From Collibacillus ludicampi (lineage in GTDB: Bacteria; Bacillota; Bacilli; Tumebacillales; BOQE01): DNA of 64,000 bases. This document shows, one piece after another, positions 1,219 to 4,244 of the stretch. Location of the stretch: positions 2,307,001 through 2,371,000 of the forward strand of contig NZ_BOQE01000001.1 in NCBI RefSeq assembly GCF_023705585.1, read 5' to 3'. The notes beneath the pieces are model-generated. The model made no database searches and was not told the DNA's origin. It was given only the letters and a program-made list of their open reading frames with translations. Made by a program: the position numbers and the translations under genes. How positions within the stretch are numbered: the first letter of the stretch is position 1; each line of letters opens with the position of its first letter.

Positions 1219-1389
1219 ACGATCGACTGGAACCTCCGCGAGAGTGTCCGAGCGCAGATGCGTATCACCGTAAAACGACTGCTCAAGAAGTACGGCTACC
1301 CGCCGGATCTGGAAAAGATGGCAATTGAAACGGTGTTGAAACAGGCTGAATTGATGTATCAAAATGAGGTTGAAGAGTTTACATATTGA
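1219..1389 (+). pseudogene. hsdR: Remnant of type I restriction subunit HsdR (C-terminal 56 codons)
   Basis: The frame from 1219 to the stop at 1387-1389 reads [20 protein letters not shown], then a segment with [13 protein letters not shown] and a closing helix rich in E and Q. This matches my recollection of the C-terminal end of type I restriction endonuclease R subunits, where W..RESVRA.(M/L)R..VKRLL(R/K)KYGYPPD is strongly conserved. There is an in-frame stop at 1216-1218, no start codon, and no helicase or nuclease domain upstream, because transketolase sits there instead. It is therefore the tail left by a deletion. No hsdM or hsdS is nearby. The assignment rests on memory of the motif, not on an alignment. 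Confidence 0.6.
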
Positions 1390-1509: not shown

Positions 1510-1743
1510 CTATACAATGTCATACTCTTGTTTGCCCTTTACCATAATGAATTCTTCTACCGTTCCGCAGATATGGCATACAGCTTCGTACTTTCTGAAC
1601 ACTATCTCTTGATTGTTAGTAACAAATATCTCAAGCGAATCACCGACATCGATCTTGAATGTATCATGAAGTTTTTTCGGTAAAACAACTCTTCCTAAAT
1701 TATCGAATATAAATATCCCCACGATTGCCGATCGTTTCCACAA
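1510..1743 (-). CDS. AbrB/SpoVT-type swapped-hairpin DNA-binding protein, probably truncated
   Basis: This 77-residue product carries the AbrB-type core DNLGRVVLPKKLHDTFKI, then a VGDSLEIF strand and a CHICG element like the CxxC near the end of sporulation-era AbrB paralogues. Family members normally begin MKSTGIVRK-(I/V)D and continue past a second cysteine pair. Here the start is unusual and lies 44 bp inside the toxin gene, and the C-terminus stops at EYDIV, before the second cysteine pair. It may be translationally coupled to the toxin, or it may be an AbrB gene whose 5' end was replaced in a deletion. No clear ribosome site precedes the ATG. Confidence 0.55.
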   Translation of the reverse strand: MWKRSAIVGIFIFDNLGRVVLPKKLHDTFKIDVGDSLEIFVTNNQEIVFRKYEAVCHICGTVEEFIMVKGKQEYDIV

Positions 1744-1966
1744 TGATCAACTGTCGGTCATGATCGACAAAAAATAATACCCGAAAGGTTCCAATACGAA
1801 GCCGGAACAACCCTTGTTCACCCTTGAGCTTTTTTATATCACCTTGGGGTGGAACATTTTTTAGCCCTTCCAGTGATTCCAAAATGCGCATTTGCAATTT
1901 CTTGTCCTGCTTCTTGATAAACTTAATGGCTGGTGGCTTTAAGATGAGATTATAGATTAAGCTCAC
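1700..1966 (-). CDS. RelE/ParE-family toxin
   Basis: This 88-residue product is of the RelE/ParE fold: an N-terminal amphipathic helix pair (FIKKQDKKLQMRILESLEGL), then the strand-rich half with GLFRLRIGTFRVLFFVD and a closing IGNRGDIY. Members usually cleave mRNA on the ribosome (RelE) or poison gyrase (ParE); the sequence does not decide which. The start overlaps the end of the antitoxin gene by 17 bp, the standard antitoxin-first arrangement that couples translation. The IGNRGDIY ending is where the family normally ends, so this gene looks intact even though an AbrB-like ORF begins inside it. Confidence 0.82.
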   Translation of the reverse strand: MSLIYNLILKPPAIKFIKKQDKKLQMRILESLEGLKNVPPQGDIKKLKGEQGLFRLRIGTFRVLFFVDHDRQLIIVETIGNRGDIYIR

Positions 1967-2186
1967 TTTTTAAATCCTCCAAAGATATGGATTCGTCATC
2001 TTCTTTTGCACGAGCCAACTTTGCTTTCTCTTCATCGGTTAAAGGCTCATCCACCTCTGGAATATCATCCCATGCTTTTTTAGCTGCACGTGCAACCAGG
2101 TATTCCATGTAATCAAGTAAACTTTTTTTGTCCTGCTCAGGAAGCTGATTAAAAAGGTGATCAAATTGGTCCTTGGGAAGTGCCAT
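1950..2186 (-). CDS. Antitoxin of the RelE/ParE-type pair
   Basis: This 78-residue acidic protein starts MALPKDQFDHLFNQL and has a helical N-terminal half followed by a charged, probably disordered tail (DEPLTDEEKAKLARAKEDDE) suited to wrapping around the toxin. A clear aggagg ribosome site lies 7 bp upstream of the ATG on the minus strand. It is assigned as antitoxin mainly by position immediately before the toxin with a 17-bp overlap, and by size and charge. I do not recognise a specific antitoxin family; it resembles RelB/DUF2281-like proteins. Such antitoxins usually repress their own promoter, which would lie in the gene-free DNA upstream of 2186. Confidence 0.72.
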   Translation of the reverse strand: MALPKDQFDHLFNQLPEQDKKSLLDYMEYLVARAAKKAWDDIPEVDEPLTDEEKAKLARAKEDDESISLEDLKSELNL

Positions 2187-2436
2187 TTTTATGCCTCCTC
2201 ATATATCCGATAAGGTATTGGATAAGCTGAGAATACCCAACCACTGTCATACGGACAAAAATAACCCGTAGGTGTTTTTTCTATCGTTTTGTGTATAAGA
2301 CATTACCTTTCTCAGAAAAACATAACATATCAAGGGTTTATTCGCAAAACTTAGCTGCGAAAGTTGAATAACTCACCTGAATCATTTGACTTTCAGTAGA
2401 ATACACATTTTTCCATAAAAATAATTTCCGACGCTT

Positions 2437-2504
2437 TTCGACATAAAATTCTCCATAGCCCCAGTCCGATCAAGGATATTGTCGATTATTAACAAACTTC
2501 GACA
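2437..2504. promoter_or_regulatory. Two TTCGACA boxes resembling Spo0A (0A) sites
   Basis: TTCGACA occurs at 2437-2443 and 2498-2504, and each is the exact complement of the 0A box TGTCGAA. A 7-bp inverted pair (ttgtcga / tcgacaa) spans 2480-2505. This fits Spo0A control of the transcript starting near 2555, but short boxes occur by chance. Confidence 0.3.
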
Positions 2505-2519
2505 ACCGCGAAAGACATC

Positions 2520-2548
2520 TTGTGAGTCTGAAAGTTATGCTATAGAAT
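2520..2548 (+). promoter_or_regulatory. Candidate sigma-A promoter of an untranslated RNA
   Basis: TTGTGA (2520-2525) and TAGAAT (2543-2548) are spaced by 17 bp. This would start a transcript near 2555, too close to the ATG at 2560 for a normal ribosome site. Confidence 0.35.
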
Positions 2549-2620
2549 AAGAGAGGGAAATGTACAAGGGTAAATTATTCGTGTACGGAAACATAGTGGT
2601 AAATGAAAGTTTTGATTCTC

Positions 2621-2840
2621 GATACGCATCGAAAAAGAAATAAGAGATTGTGAGATAAAAAAAGCCCCCTGAAAAAGGGGGTACAATGGGATTCTATCTC
2701 CTCGTTTTCACGAGAAGAAGAAACAAGGGATATCTCTATTATACATATAAACATTAGGAATTTTTATAGAGAAAAATTGGTGAATATAGAGATCGTTGTA
2801 AGAGACTAGTTGAATATACATTCTTTTTTCGATGCGTATC
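2621..2840. repeat. Long-range inverted repeat
   Basis: GATACGCATCGAAAAAGAA (2621-2639) is repeated inverted at 2821-2840 with one extra base in the A-run. Each copy contains the near-palindrome TCGAT-4nt-ATCGA. It could be an RNA stem, the ends of a small element, or paired protein-binding sites. Confidence 0.75.
2657..2743 (-). ncRNA. Candidate ~75-nt small RNA, antisense to the plus-strand RNA
   Basis: On the minus strand a TATAAT (complement of 2738-2743) is followed ~70 nt later by a textbook terminator: cccccttttt-c-aggggg then seven T (2681 down to 2657). Between them lies a small hairpin, ctcgtgaaaacgag. No -35 box is evident and there is no ORF. It lies wholly inside the candidate plus-strand RNA, so the two would be complementary. 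Confidence 0.35.
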
Positions 2841-2905
2841 AAGGTGTCGATCAAACGAAACGAAAGTTAAACGATAATATCTTATGTGTATGGACACTTA
2901 CTGAT

Positions 2906-2957
2906 AACACCGGAATCCTTCTTGCCTGAAGGCATGGAGGATCCCGGTGTTTTTTAT
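2906..2957 (+). terminator. Strong terminator with no protein gene upstream
   Basis: aacaccgg-aatcc (2906-2918) pairs with ggatcccggtgtt (2939-2951), enclosing a small inner hairpin and followed by TTTTTTATTT. It implies a plus-strand transcript through 2.5-2.9 kb. Confidence 0.75.
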
Positions 2958-2967
2958 TTCCTTTTCG

Positions 2968-3016
2968 AAGCTACATCGAACCCAAGCGCAAAGCGATACA
3001 CCCACCCAAGCACTAG
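2968..3016. repeat. Interspersed palindromic repeat, single arm
   Basis: The stretch catcgaacccaagcgcaaag continuing to cacccaagcacta is nearly identical to 12053-12098, the right arm of the second module at the 12-kb locus. The left arm is absent here. See the entries at 11738 and 31622. Confidence 0.75.
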
Positions 3017-3160
3017 TTCTCAAGATAGATTCTTTCGTATAACGAGGCACTCTCAATAGGGCTGTTCTGAAATATGAGAAACACAATATTTATGTAACGA
3101 GGAGCAATCAGGGAAAGATTACTTGAGGGAGAGCGGTACTCATGAGTGAGGAGGGGAATT

Positions 3161-3250
3161 ATGGCTTGTAAAACAGGGGTTAGGTTTGACGCTCAAGTAA
3201 CGGACTATAACTGGTCATGGCGGTACTGGAAAATGGACGAAAAAACCTGA
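3161..3250 (+). CDS. Candidate 29-residue ORF ahead of the oxidase operon
   Basis: ATG at 3161 is preceded by a very strong gaggagggg ribosome site and encodes 29 residues beginning MACKTGVRF and containing DYNWSWRYW. It is hydrophilic but rich in tryptophan and tyrosine, with no membrane segment. It ends 70 bp before ctaC. I know no family for it. The ribosome site is the main support; it could be a leader peptide for the oxidase operon or chance. Confidence 0.35.
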   Translation: MACKTGVRFDAQVTDYNWSWRYWKMDEKT

Positions 3251-3320
3251 ATGTGAAAAAAACAGAACATATCTTACTTACGGATTTGACGCAATCACTT
3301 CTCGTTAGGAGGGGGAAGGT

Positions 3321-4244
3321 GTGGGAAGCAGCTTCTGGTTGCCGCAACCGATCACGGATCTGGCGAAAAGCGTGGATTCCCTTTTTTATATTATCACATG
3401 GGTCGCGGTCGTTATTTTTCTTTTAGTAGAGATTTTACTCGTCACTTTTGTCATTCGGTATCGCAGAAAACATCCAAAACAAGAGGGTCCCGCCATCCAT
3501 GGAAACCATCGATTGGAGATTATTTGGACGGCGATTCCCGCACTGATTCTGGTCGTCATTGCCGTGATCAGTTTTCCTCTAGTAAACAAGATTCAAACTC
3601 CGCCTAAAGACTCAATGGAAATACAAGTAACAGGGCGTATGTGGTCATGGGAATTCCGGTATCCGAATGGGGTGACCACATATAATGAACTGCGTCTTCC
3701 GGTAGGAAAAGATCTATTGTTCCGCATCACATCCAGCGATGTGATTCACAGCTTCTGGCTTCCGGAGTGGCGTATCAAGCAGGATGCAGTCCCAGGAAGG
3801 GAAACGCAAATATGGGCACGTATCGATAAACCGGGAACGTACGAGGTAAAGTGCGCGGAGTATTGCGGTACGAACCATTCACAAATGCTCGCCAAAGTGA
3901 TCACCATGAACGATTCCGAGTTCGATGCGTGGATGAATGAACAAAAGAAAAAAGCAGAATCTCAAGGAGTGAATGGTCAGCAATTGGTGCAGACACTCGG
4001 TTGTCTTTCCTGTCATTCGACGGACGGCAGCCAATCGGTCGGGCCCACGTGGAAAGGTTTATTTGGTTCGAAGGTGACTTTACAGGACGGAAGTACGGTG
4101 ACAGCAGATGAAGCGTACTTGAAAGAATCGATCGTACAACCGGGAGCAAAAGTCGTTCAAGGATATTCCAATATCATGACGCCCGCCCAACTGAATGATC
4201 AACAGGTGAAGGCGATTCTCGACTACTTAAAGTCTCTCAACTAA
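3321..4244 (+). CDS. ctaC: Cytochrome c oxidase subunit II with fused cytochrome c (caa3 type)
   Basis: This 307-residue membrane protein accepts electrons and passes them to subunit I of the terminal oxidase. It has two N-terminal membrane segments (about residues 22-45 and 68-90), then the extracellular cupredoxin domain. The CuA site is CAEYCGTNHSQM, with both cysteines, histidine and methionine. A C-terminal cytochrome c domain has CLSCH for covalent heme. The start is GTG at 3321, placed by aggaggggg at 3307-3315. There is no lipoprotein signal ahead of the first membrane segment, unlike Bacillus CtaC. ctaD follows 34 bp downstream. Confidence 0.96.
   Translation: MGSSFWLPQPITDLAKSVDSLFYIITWVAVVIFLLVEILLVTFVIRYRRKHPKQEGPAIHGNHRLEIIWTAIPALILVVIAVISFPLVNKIQTPPKDSMEIQVTGRMWSWEFRYPNGVTTYNELRLPVGKDLLFRITSSDVIHSFWLPEWRIKQDAVPGRETQIWARIDKPGTYEVKCAEYCGTNHSQMLAKVITMNDSEFDAWMNEQKKKAESQGVNGQQLVQTLGCLSCHSTDGSQSVGPTWKGLFGSKVTLQDGSTVTADEAYLKESIVQPGAKVVQGYSNIMTPAQLNDQQVKAILDYLKSLN

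Follow-up and report, generated by a model that had tools for sequence, protein, structure and literature searches.

The locus at 2520-2957 of the window, by which we mean the whole 64,000-nucleotide stretch analysed here, is more than a product of chance, but it differs from what the earlier note had described. Where that note saw a possible pair of non-coding RNAs, computation yields a paralogous family in the same genome, better conservation of one frame, a predicted hairpin over the Shine-Dalgarno sequence (SD), a long-range stem, and terminators. We tentatively favour the reading, at somewhat less than even confidence, that a small peptide gene lies here, controlled at the RNA level and belonging to a four-copy, lineage-restricted family. 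The non-coding reading of the plus strand is probably wrong because it is a short coding frame that is conserved; the sign that the note itself had named against its proposal was a conserved protein in one of the frames, and a 23-codon plus-strand frame is the best conserved. If real, the locus would extend the catalogue of small proteins by an orphan peptide family.

The 23-codon frame and the signals around it

The window starts with a transketolase gene, which is followed by small minus-strand genes at 1510-2186 and, from 3321 onward, by cytochrome oxidase genes. The longest listed ORF lying wholly within the gap at 2187-3320 has 62 codons. The minus-strand group is made up of an AbrB/MazE-like protein, a ParE-like toxin, and the toxin's partner. 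The last two form a pair at 1700-2186 (minus strand) that adjoins the studied locus, followed by the AbrB/MazE-like ORF at 1510-1743; the toxin is ParE/RelE-like (PF05016, E 2.8e-6), and its upstream partner has only a DUF2281 match below the cut-off. An adjoining toxin-antitoxin system, to which attention had been drawn earlier, is thus present as a type II pair, but it is no evidence in itself, and the three paralogues of the locus lie far away. A 43-codon ORF at 1258-1386 (plus strand) matches PF11867, a type I restriction HindI endonuclease-like C-terminal domain (E 5.1e-11); the match covers only positions 294-328 of 329, so the ORF is probably a gene remnant.

The sense RNA would start at a promoter-like pair, TTGTGA-N17-TAGAAT, at 2520-2548 (plus strand). 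The sequence is there, with 9 of 12 consensus positions, but its strength is no better than that of shuffled DNA: sites of scan quality number 10 in 4 kb compared with 8.2 +/- 2.4 in shuffles, and the promoter taken alone is therefore at chance level. The strong plus-strand terminator at 2906-2957 is real, with arms at 2906-2927 and 2930-2951 that are 86% complementary and lead into a T-run; its stem at 2906-2951 has internal mismatches in the fold and is missing from the list of the terminator scan. The 404-nt plus-strand RNA folds with a z of -5.5. Soon after the terminator, at 2968-3028, a dispersed repeat (CTACATCGAACCCAAGCGCAAAGCGATACACCCACCCAAGCACTAG...) starts. At least 38 further places in the genome match the 28-33 nt of it that lie inside the query (40 of 141 candidates scored), and several of the copies inspected have an inverted partial copy nearby.

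A 27-codon ORF at 2560-2643 (plus strand), which had been taken for the only short ORF, carries no sign of conservation. One paralogue, L002, lacks an ATG where this ORF begins (alignment A6), which is weak evidence against it because the alignment has no significance there. It is also not the only one, as a 23-codon ORF with its own SD lies at 2686-2757 on the plus strand. This ORF reads ATG GGA TTC TAT CTC CTC GTT TTC ACG AGA AGA AGA AAC AAG GGA TAT CTC TAT TAT ACA TAT AAA CAT TAG and encodes MGFYLLVFTRRRNKGYLYYTYKH. The SD, AAGGGGGT, is found at 2675-2682 (plus strand), with its G-run at 2677-2681, 4 nt ahead of the ATG. Type I toxin genes are recognized in part by a short ORF (<60 codons) with a ribosome-binding site, and the predicted ORF at 2686-2757 is of this kind.

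The 23-residue peptide is cationic and aromatic, with a pI of 10.1, a charge of about +5, and no Trp. Its GRAVY is -0.59 and its best 19-residue mean hydropathy is -0.24. PMC8309996 describes the membrane-associated toxins of type I systems as hydrophobic peptides that form a transmembrane (TM) helix. The window peptide fails this usual test because it is cationic and aromatic rather than hydrophobic, and a hydrophobic tail (best 19-residue mean 1.54) is seen only in the frame of another paralogue, L003. The peptide could act other than as a membrane toxin, or be no toxin. The string "RRRNKGY" had no occurrence in a literature text search.

The G-run of the SD sits inside a CCCCC-loop-GGGGG hairpin at 2665-2681, which on the minus strand is the terminator of the putative antisense unit. 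This terminator (2681-2665, with its T-run at 2663-2657) had been described before and is detected by the terminator scan. The TATAAT of the antisense unit, 2743-2738 on the minus strand (2738-2743 in plus-strand order), is likewise present, where the plus strand reads as the Tyr-Tyr codons TAT TAT A. Such a motif is easy to obtain by chance, however, as 336 of 1000 dinucleotide shuffles also hold a TATAAT somewhere in the region, and the promoter scan lists none at this site. With a third of the shuffles holding one, the minus-strand TATAAT is weak evidence. A start placed 7 nt past it gives a predicted antisense RNA of about 75 nt (2657-2731, minus strand), which would be a perfect complement of the SD and the first 46 of the 72 nt of the ORF. 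A 77-nt minus-strand RNA folds with a z of -3.9.

The ORF is enclosed by a long-range stem, with 24-nt arms at 2618-2641 and 2820-2843 (both plus strand) that are 88% complementary. The stem is real; its longest perfect part is 16 bp, whereas none of 100 dinucleotide shuffles exceeded 11. The L002 paralogue, too, has the arm sequence, TACGCATCGA, on both sides, and the stem there, of 11 bp, is longer than in all 100 shuffles of L002. The partner arm lies after the ORF core in both places. L003 and L084, the two other paralogues, are without arms of the window type, and L003 has a different 13-nt pair that is 85% complementary. A third, imperfect copy of the arm (GATACGCATTGA) occurs at 1697-1708 of L002, some 95 nt outside the L002 unit, so the arm sequence may recur as a site of binding or processing.

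From this layout we infer that both strands are transcribed, that the ORF is translated under antisense control, and that the product may be toxic. A plus-strand mRNA of about 400 nt would carry the 23-codon ORF at 2686, with the SD paired to CCCCC in the local hairpin and the ORF region closed by the stem between the 5' and 3' parts. For these two reasons a fresh transcript would be poorly translated. The opposite-strand RNA of about 75 nt would start within the ORF and stop at the hairpin over the SD, and it would either block translation or bring about cleavage of the duplex, acting as a type I antitoxin (cf. AapA3/IsoA3).

The four-copy family

A search of the genome with 2480-3000 found two more places that match the middle of the region only, with 80% identity over 80 nt and 90% over 51 nt. 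A 34-nt pattern built from the three closest cores (up to 3 mismatches) finds those three only, and its reversed control finds none. A covariance model of the three copies brought in the fourth, L084 at C1:3525699 (E 0.0075), with the next match at 1.5. The 23-residue peptide as a single query also retrieves the three paralogues (E 4.9e-5, 0.0016, and 0.16). In a four-member profile the members score E <= 1.6e-11, as is expected of its own members, and nothing else in the genome falls below 0.21. The copies lie at 1.21, 1.31, 2.31, and 3.53 Mb of C1 in unrelated surroundings. Reading from the translations, we take L002 to stand beside a surface protein (418-codon ORF), L003 between a 126-codon ORF with a presumed signal-peptide-like start and an 82-codon ORF, and L084 between ORFs that are presumably transporter-like and alcohol-dehydrogenase-like.

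The same frame is found in each paralogue, as NIYLRVFTRRRNKGYLYYIQ in L003, MFDLLVLTRRRNKGYVFDAYT in L002, and (GTG)STSGVFTGRRSKGYLYNIYIK in L084. All four copies have AAGGGG ahead of the frame, and two have a good start codon; L003 has no ATG, GTG, or TTG between the SD and the conserved codons, and in L084 a GTG follows one base after the G-run. A hairpin containing, and thus sequestering, the SD is predicted in the window, L003, and L002, with differing stem sequences. L084 is without this hairpin and without the antisense terminator, and keeps the peptide core. On the minus strand, the SD hairpin and the adjoining A-tract form an intrinsic terminator that is strong in the window and L003 and weak in L002; the scan finds no minus-strand terminator in L002 or L084. 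The minus-strand TATAAT stands at an equal distance in the window and L003 and is absent from L002, so that among the paralogues the combination of TATAAT and terminator seen in the window is clear only in L003. The promoter scan of L003 gave none on either strand. The minus-strand folds are stable, with z from -3.2 to -4.8. Downstream, a plus-strand terminator 3' of the ORF is present in the window and L084. In L003 a scan as far as 1750 gave none 3' of the frame, and for L002 the scan gave no equivalent, with only a hairpin followed by GTTTATTAT visible by eye.

Similarity between the window and L002 is continuous from the 5' arm, GATACGCATCGA, across the hairpin and on into the coding frame. 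For the part between the start of the arm and the ATG, none of 2000 shuffles was as good, and with the arm left out only 1 of 2000 was. Conservation of the sense promoter was considered and rejected: alignment A6 places a good-looking TTGTAT-N17-TACAAT of L002 opposite the window promoter, but the similarity upstream of the arm failed the shuffle test (246 of 2000 as good), so a matching promoter is not claimed, and the scan lists no sense-strand promoter in L002. In the 200 nt ahead of the frame, the A-tract and hairpin are all that L003 has in common with the window (21 of 500 shuffles as good), and L084 has no similarity (345 of 500).

This uneven completeness is the basis of the main rival to the small peptide gene, to which we give a lower but still substantial probability. 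The four copies may be the decaying fragments of a unit that was formerly mobile or duplicated and contained a gene start, with the arms as its ends and no product active today. It is a real rival because two of the four copies lack a proper start and the antisense signals are clear in two only. Completeness does vary as such decay would have it, with arms in two copies (window and L002), the hairpin in three, and a good ATG in two; the significant similarity between the window and L002 starts at the 5' arm, and another dispersed repeat is abundant in this genome. On the other hand, the synonymous and conservative differences between the copies suggest that the frame was once under selection. 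The profile picks up no longer protein that carries the motif in this genome (next E 0.21), and the window copy has every part, although its promoters are weak. Nor does the locus look like a miniature transposable element (MITE) or other mobile element with terminal inverted repeats and target-site duplications, as arms are present in two of the four copies and no duplication, or any direct repeat, is visible by eye in the 15-16 nt beyond the arms. We also rejected GATACGCATCGA as a transposon end: TACGCATCGA occurs 19 times in the genome, in two pairs at the window and L002 and at 15 further sites, read in 14 stretches, with no other close flanking pair. Two of the occurrences lie about 1.4 kb apart within one long ORF.

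The family appears to be confined to one lineage, as the searches gave no convincing homologue beyond its own genome among the genomes sampled. The relatives searched are of the same order or more distant, and none is of the same genus or family. No convincing relative came from a DNA search of 60 other relatives, in which four matches of 28-31 nt in three genomes (E 2.5e-4 to 0.0087) fell outside the conserved core, or from a pattern search of 13 other genomes of the order. Across 398 genomes of the class, its own included, the covariance model found one other match (E 0.0077). This site, L088 (G347:C10:642516-642554), belongs to another family of the class and lies a short way ahead of a 342-codon ORF; 19 nt there are identical to GATATCCCTTGTTTCTTCT, and by eye a different short hairpin comes next. 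It is without SD or ATG, and an exact 19-nt match would be expected by chance at an estimated 0.02 over the sample. With up to 2 mismatches, the 19-nt pattern occurs in 105 of the 398 class genomes including its own, and its reversed control in fewer. Profile A5 matched 12 other genomes of the same 398 at E 0.0085-0.044, and some 20 are expected by chance at E <= 0.05. In a phylum sample of 398, again including its own genome, that genome alone reached E <= 0.005. An exact 18-nt pattern occurred in 39 stretches of the genome contigs, none by eye with the ACGNGGAGA hairpin arm, and these were taken as chance; a crude pair count gave no separation, with 4 of the 39 reaching 7 of 9 pairs, the same as the window.

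Searches of other collections were similarly empty. Viral contigs held no exact pattern match, and the two candidates from a profile scan of them were not confirmed. Searches of phages and plasmids by tblastn gave none and one E 7 match. The peptide had no match in Pfam or NCBIfam at E <= 10, no match in a PDB profile search at E 10, and no convincing homologue in PHROGs. PADLOC, given five proteins that were neighbours or early candidates (the 23-residue ORF excluded), returned one weak match (E 0.016).

The strand probably under selection

Changes between the copies are often third-position or conservative. Over 16 codons, six differ between the window and L003, four of them synonymously, and ten differ between the window and L084, again with four synonymous, including CTC to TTA (both Leu). 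Among the six possible frames, the plus frame of 2686 has the top BLOSUM score in five of six pairs of copies; in the exception, L003 with L002, the plus frame scores 51 and a minus frame 52. A null of random substitutions reaches the observed similarity in 0.5-10% of trials per pair over the 16 codons and in 0.2-16% over three other codon ranges. These tests are modest and the pairs non-independent; for frames 1 and 2 the comparison spans 15 codons. The minus-strand hairpin has, across three sequences, no pair changed on both sides and one one-sided change, and 2 of its 12 pairs are broken, in one copy each. The frame tests, the want of compensatory change in the hairpin, and the loss of the hairpin from L084 together lead us to regard past selection on the plus frame as quite probable.

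These same observations bear on a minus-strand family of trans-acting small RNAs, with a single-stranded CCCUUGUUUCUUCU, hairpin, and terminator as the functional product and the plus frame incidental to it. This was a candidate for the main reading until it was demoted by L084, the codon comparison, and the lack of any compensatory hairpin pair, and we now consider it improbable. It would account for the 34-nt pattern that finds the three closest copies alone, for the stable folds, and for the two copies that have a TATAAT and strong terminators of unrelated sequence. It is opposed by a hairpin whose pairs break without being restored and by a fourth copy that loses hairpin and terminator while keeping the peptide core. 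Weak matches to the Rfam small RNA anti-hemB in the window (E 0.0087, 21.7 bits) and L003 (E 0.001, 23.7 bits) lend it something, but they are far under the gathering score of 49.5; the scan for weak matches covered the window and L003, and no Rfam family matches the window at its gathering score. The core is also nearly complementary to AGGAGGAGAAACAAGGGTTATG at C1:1252666 (E 3, covariance model). This site (C1:1252666-1252702) resembles a ribosome site with start codon, and no ORF of 100 codons or more begins there; it is a possible trans target if the minus-strand RNA is made. If the peptide reading is right, the case also shows that a supposed antisense small RNA family deserves a search for a short open frame on the opposite strand before it is called non-coding.

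We think it very unlikely that the ORF encodes a leader peptide and that its translation governs termination at 2906-2957, and hence cytochrome oxidase subunit II at 3321, since, for all that a short ORF with consecutive AGA codons is followed by a terminator and a co-oriented gene, and that L084 also has downstream terminators and a co-oriented gene, the next ORF in L003 is convergent with no plus-strand terminator found between, and the conserved part is the frame with its SD hairpin and not the terminator.

Comparison with known systems

The small peptide gene invites comparison with three kinds of system. Multi-copy trans-acting small RNAs such as LhrC are short, pyrimidine-rich RNAs with a hairpin, a terminator, and sibling copies. 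The predicted minus-strand RNA of the window has all of these features, but its score against the Rfam LhrC family is 17.3 bits compared with a gathering score of 110, and the evidence for the plus frame is stronger than that for the RNA structure.

In the Fst/Ldr systems (par of pAD1), as PMC7472228 describes them, sense and antisense units are convergent, the product is a small peptide, and the SD is sequestered in the mRNA, much as is predicted here. The likeness ends with the terminators and the toxin. The sense and antisense terminators of the window are separate where Fst/Ldr share a bidirectional one, the putative antisense RNA lies over the SD and 46 nt at the start of the ORF, and the peptide is without the hydrophobic signature of TM segment, Trp, and charged tail. 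It has no Pfam match at E 10.

The suggestion of a type I toxin-antitoxin system, made in the earlier note, would fit the layout of a short ORF, SD hairpin, 5'-3' stem, and putative antisense unit, but the peptide has no hydrophobic segment of the kind typical of such toxins. A stronger version, that this is a new lineage-restricted type I-like family whose toxin is a polar, Arg/Tyr-rich peptide with the core VFTRRRNKGYLYY and no membrane helix, silenced by the long-range stem and by a hairpin with the dual role of SD mask and antisense terminator, strikes us as unlikely, though worth stating. If real, it would be a type I-like module with a non-hydrophobic product, in which a single palindrome masks the SD on one strand and terminates transcription on the opposite strand. 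The closest counterpart is AapA/IsoA of Helicobacter pylori. The host, to judge by gene content, is probably Bacillota-like and so of another lineage, the window peptide is a different one with no hydrophobic segment, and the long-range stem leaves the SD itself uncovered. According to PMC6733600, an 80-nt antisense RNA lies opposite the 30-residue ORF of AapA3/IsoA3; while the mRNA is being made, its SD is masked by hairpins, one of which draws on the ORF, and the complete mRNA is closed by an interaction between its 5' and 3' parts. With that system, so described, the window locus would share several chromosomal copies, a putative antisense RNA over a short ORF, a hairpin at the SD, and an interaction between the 5' and 3' parts of the mRNA.
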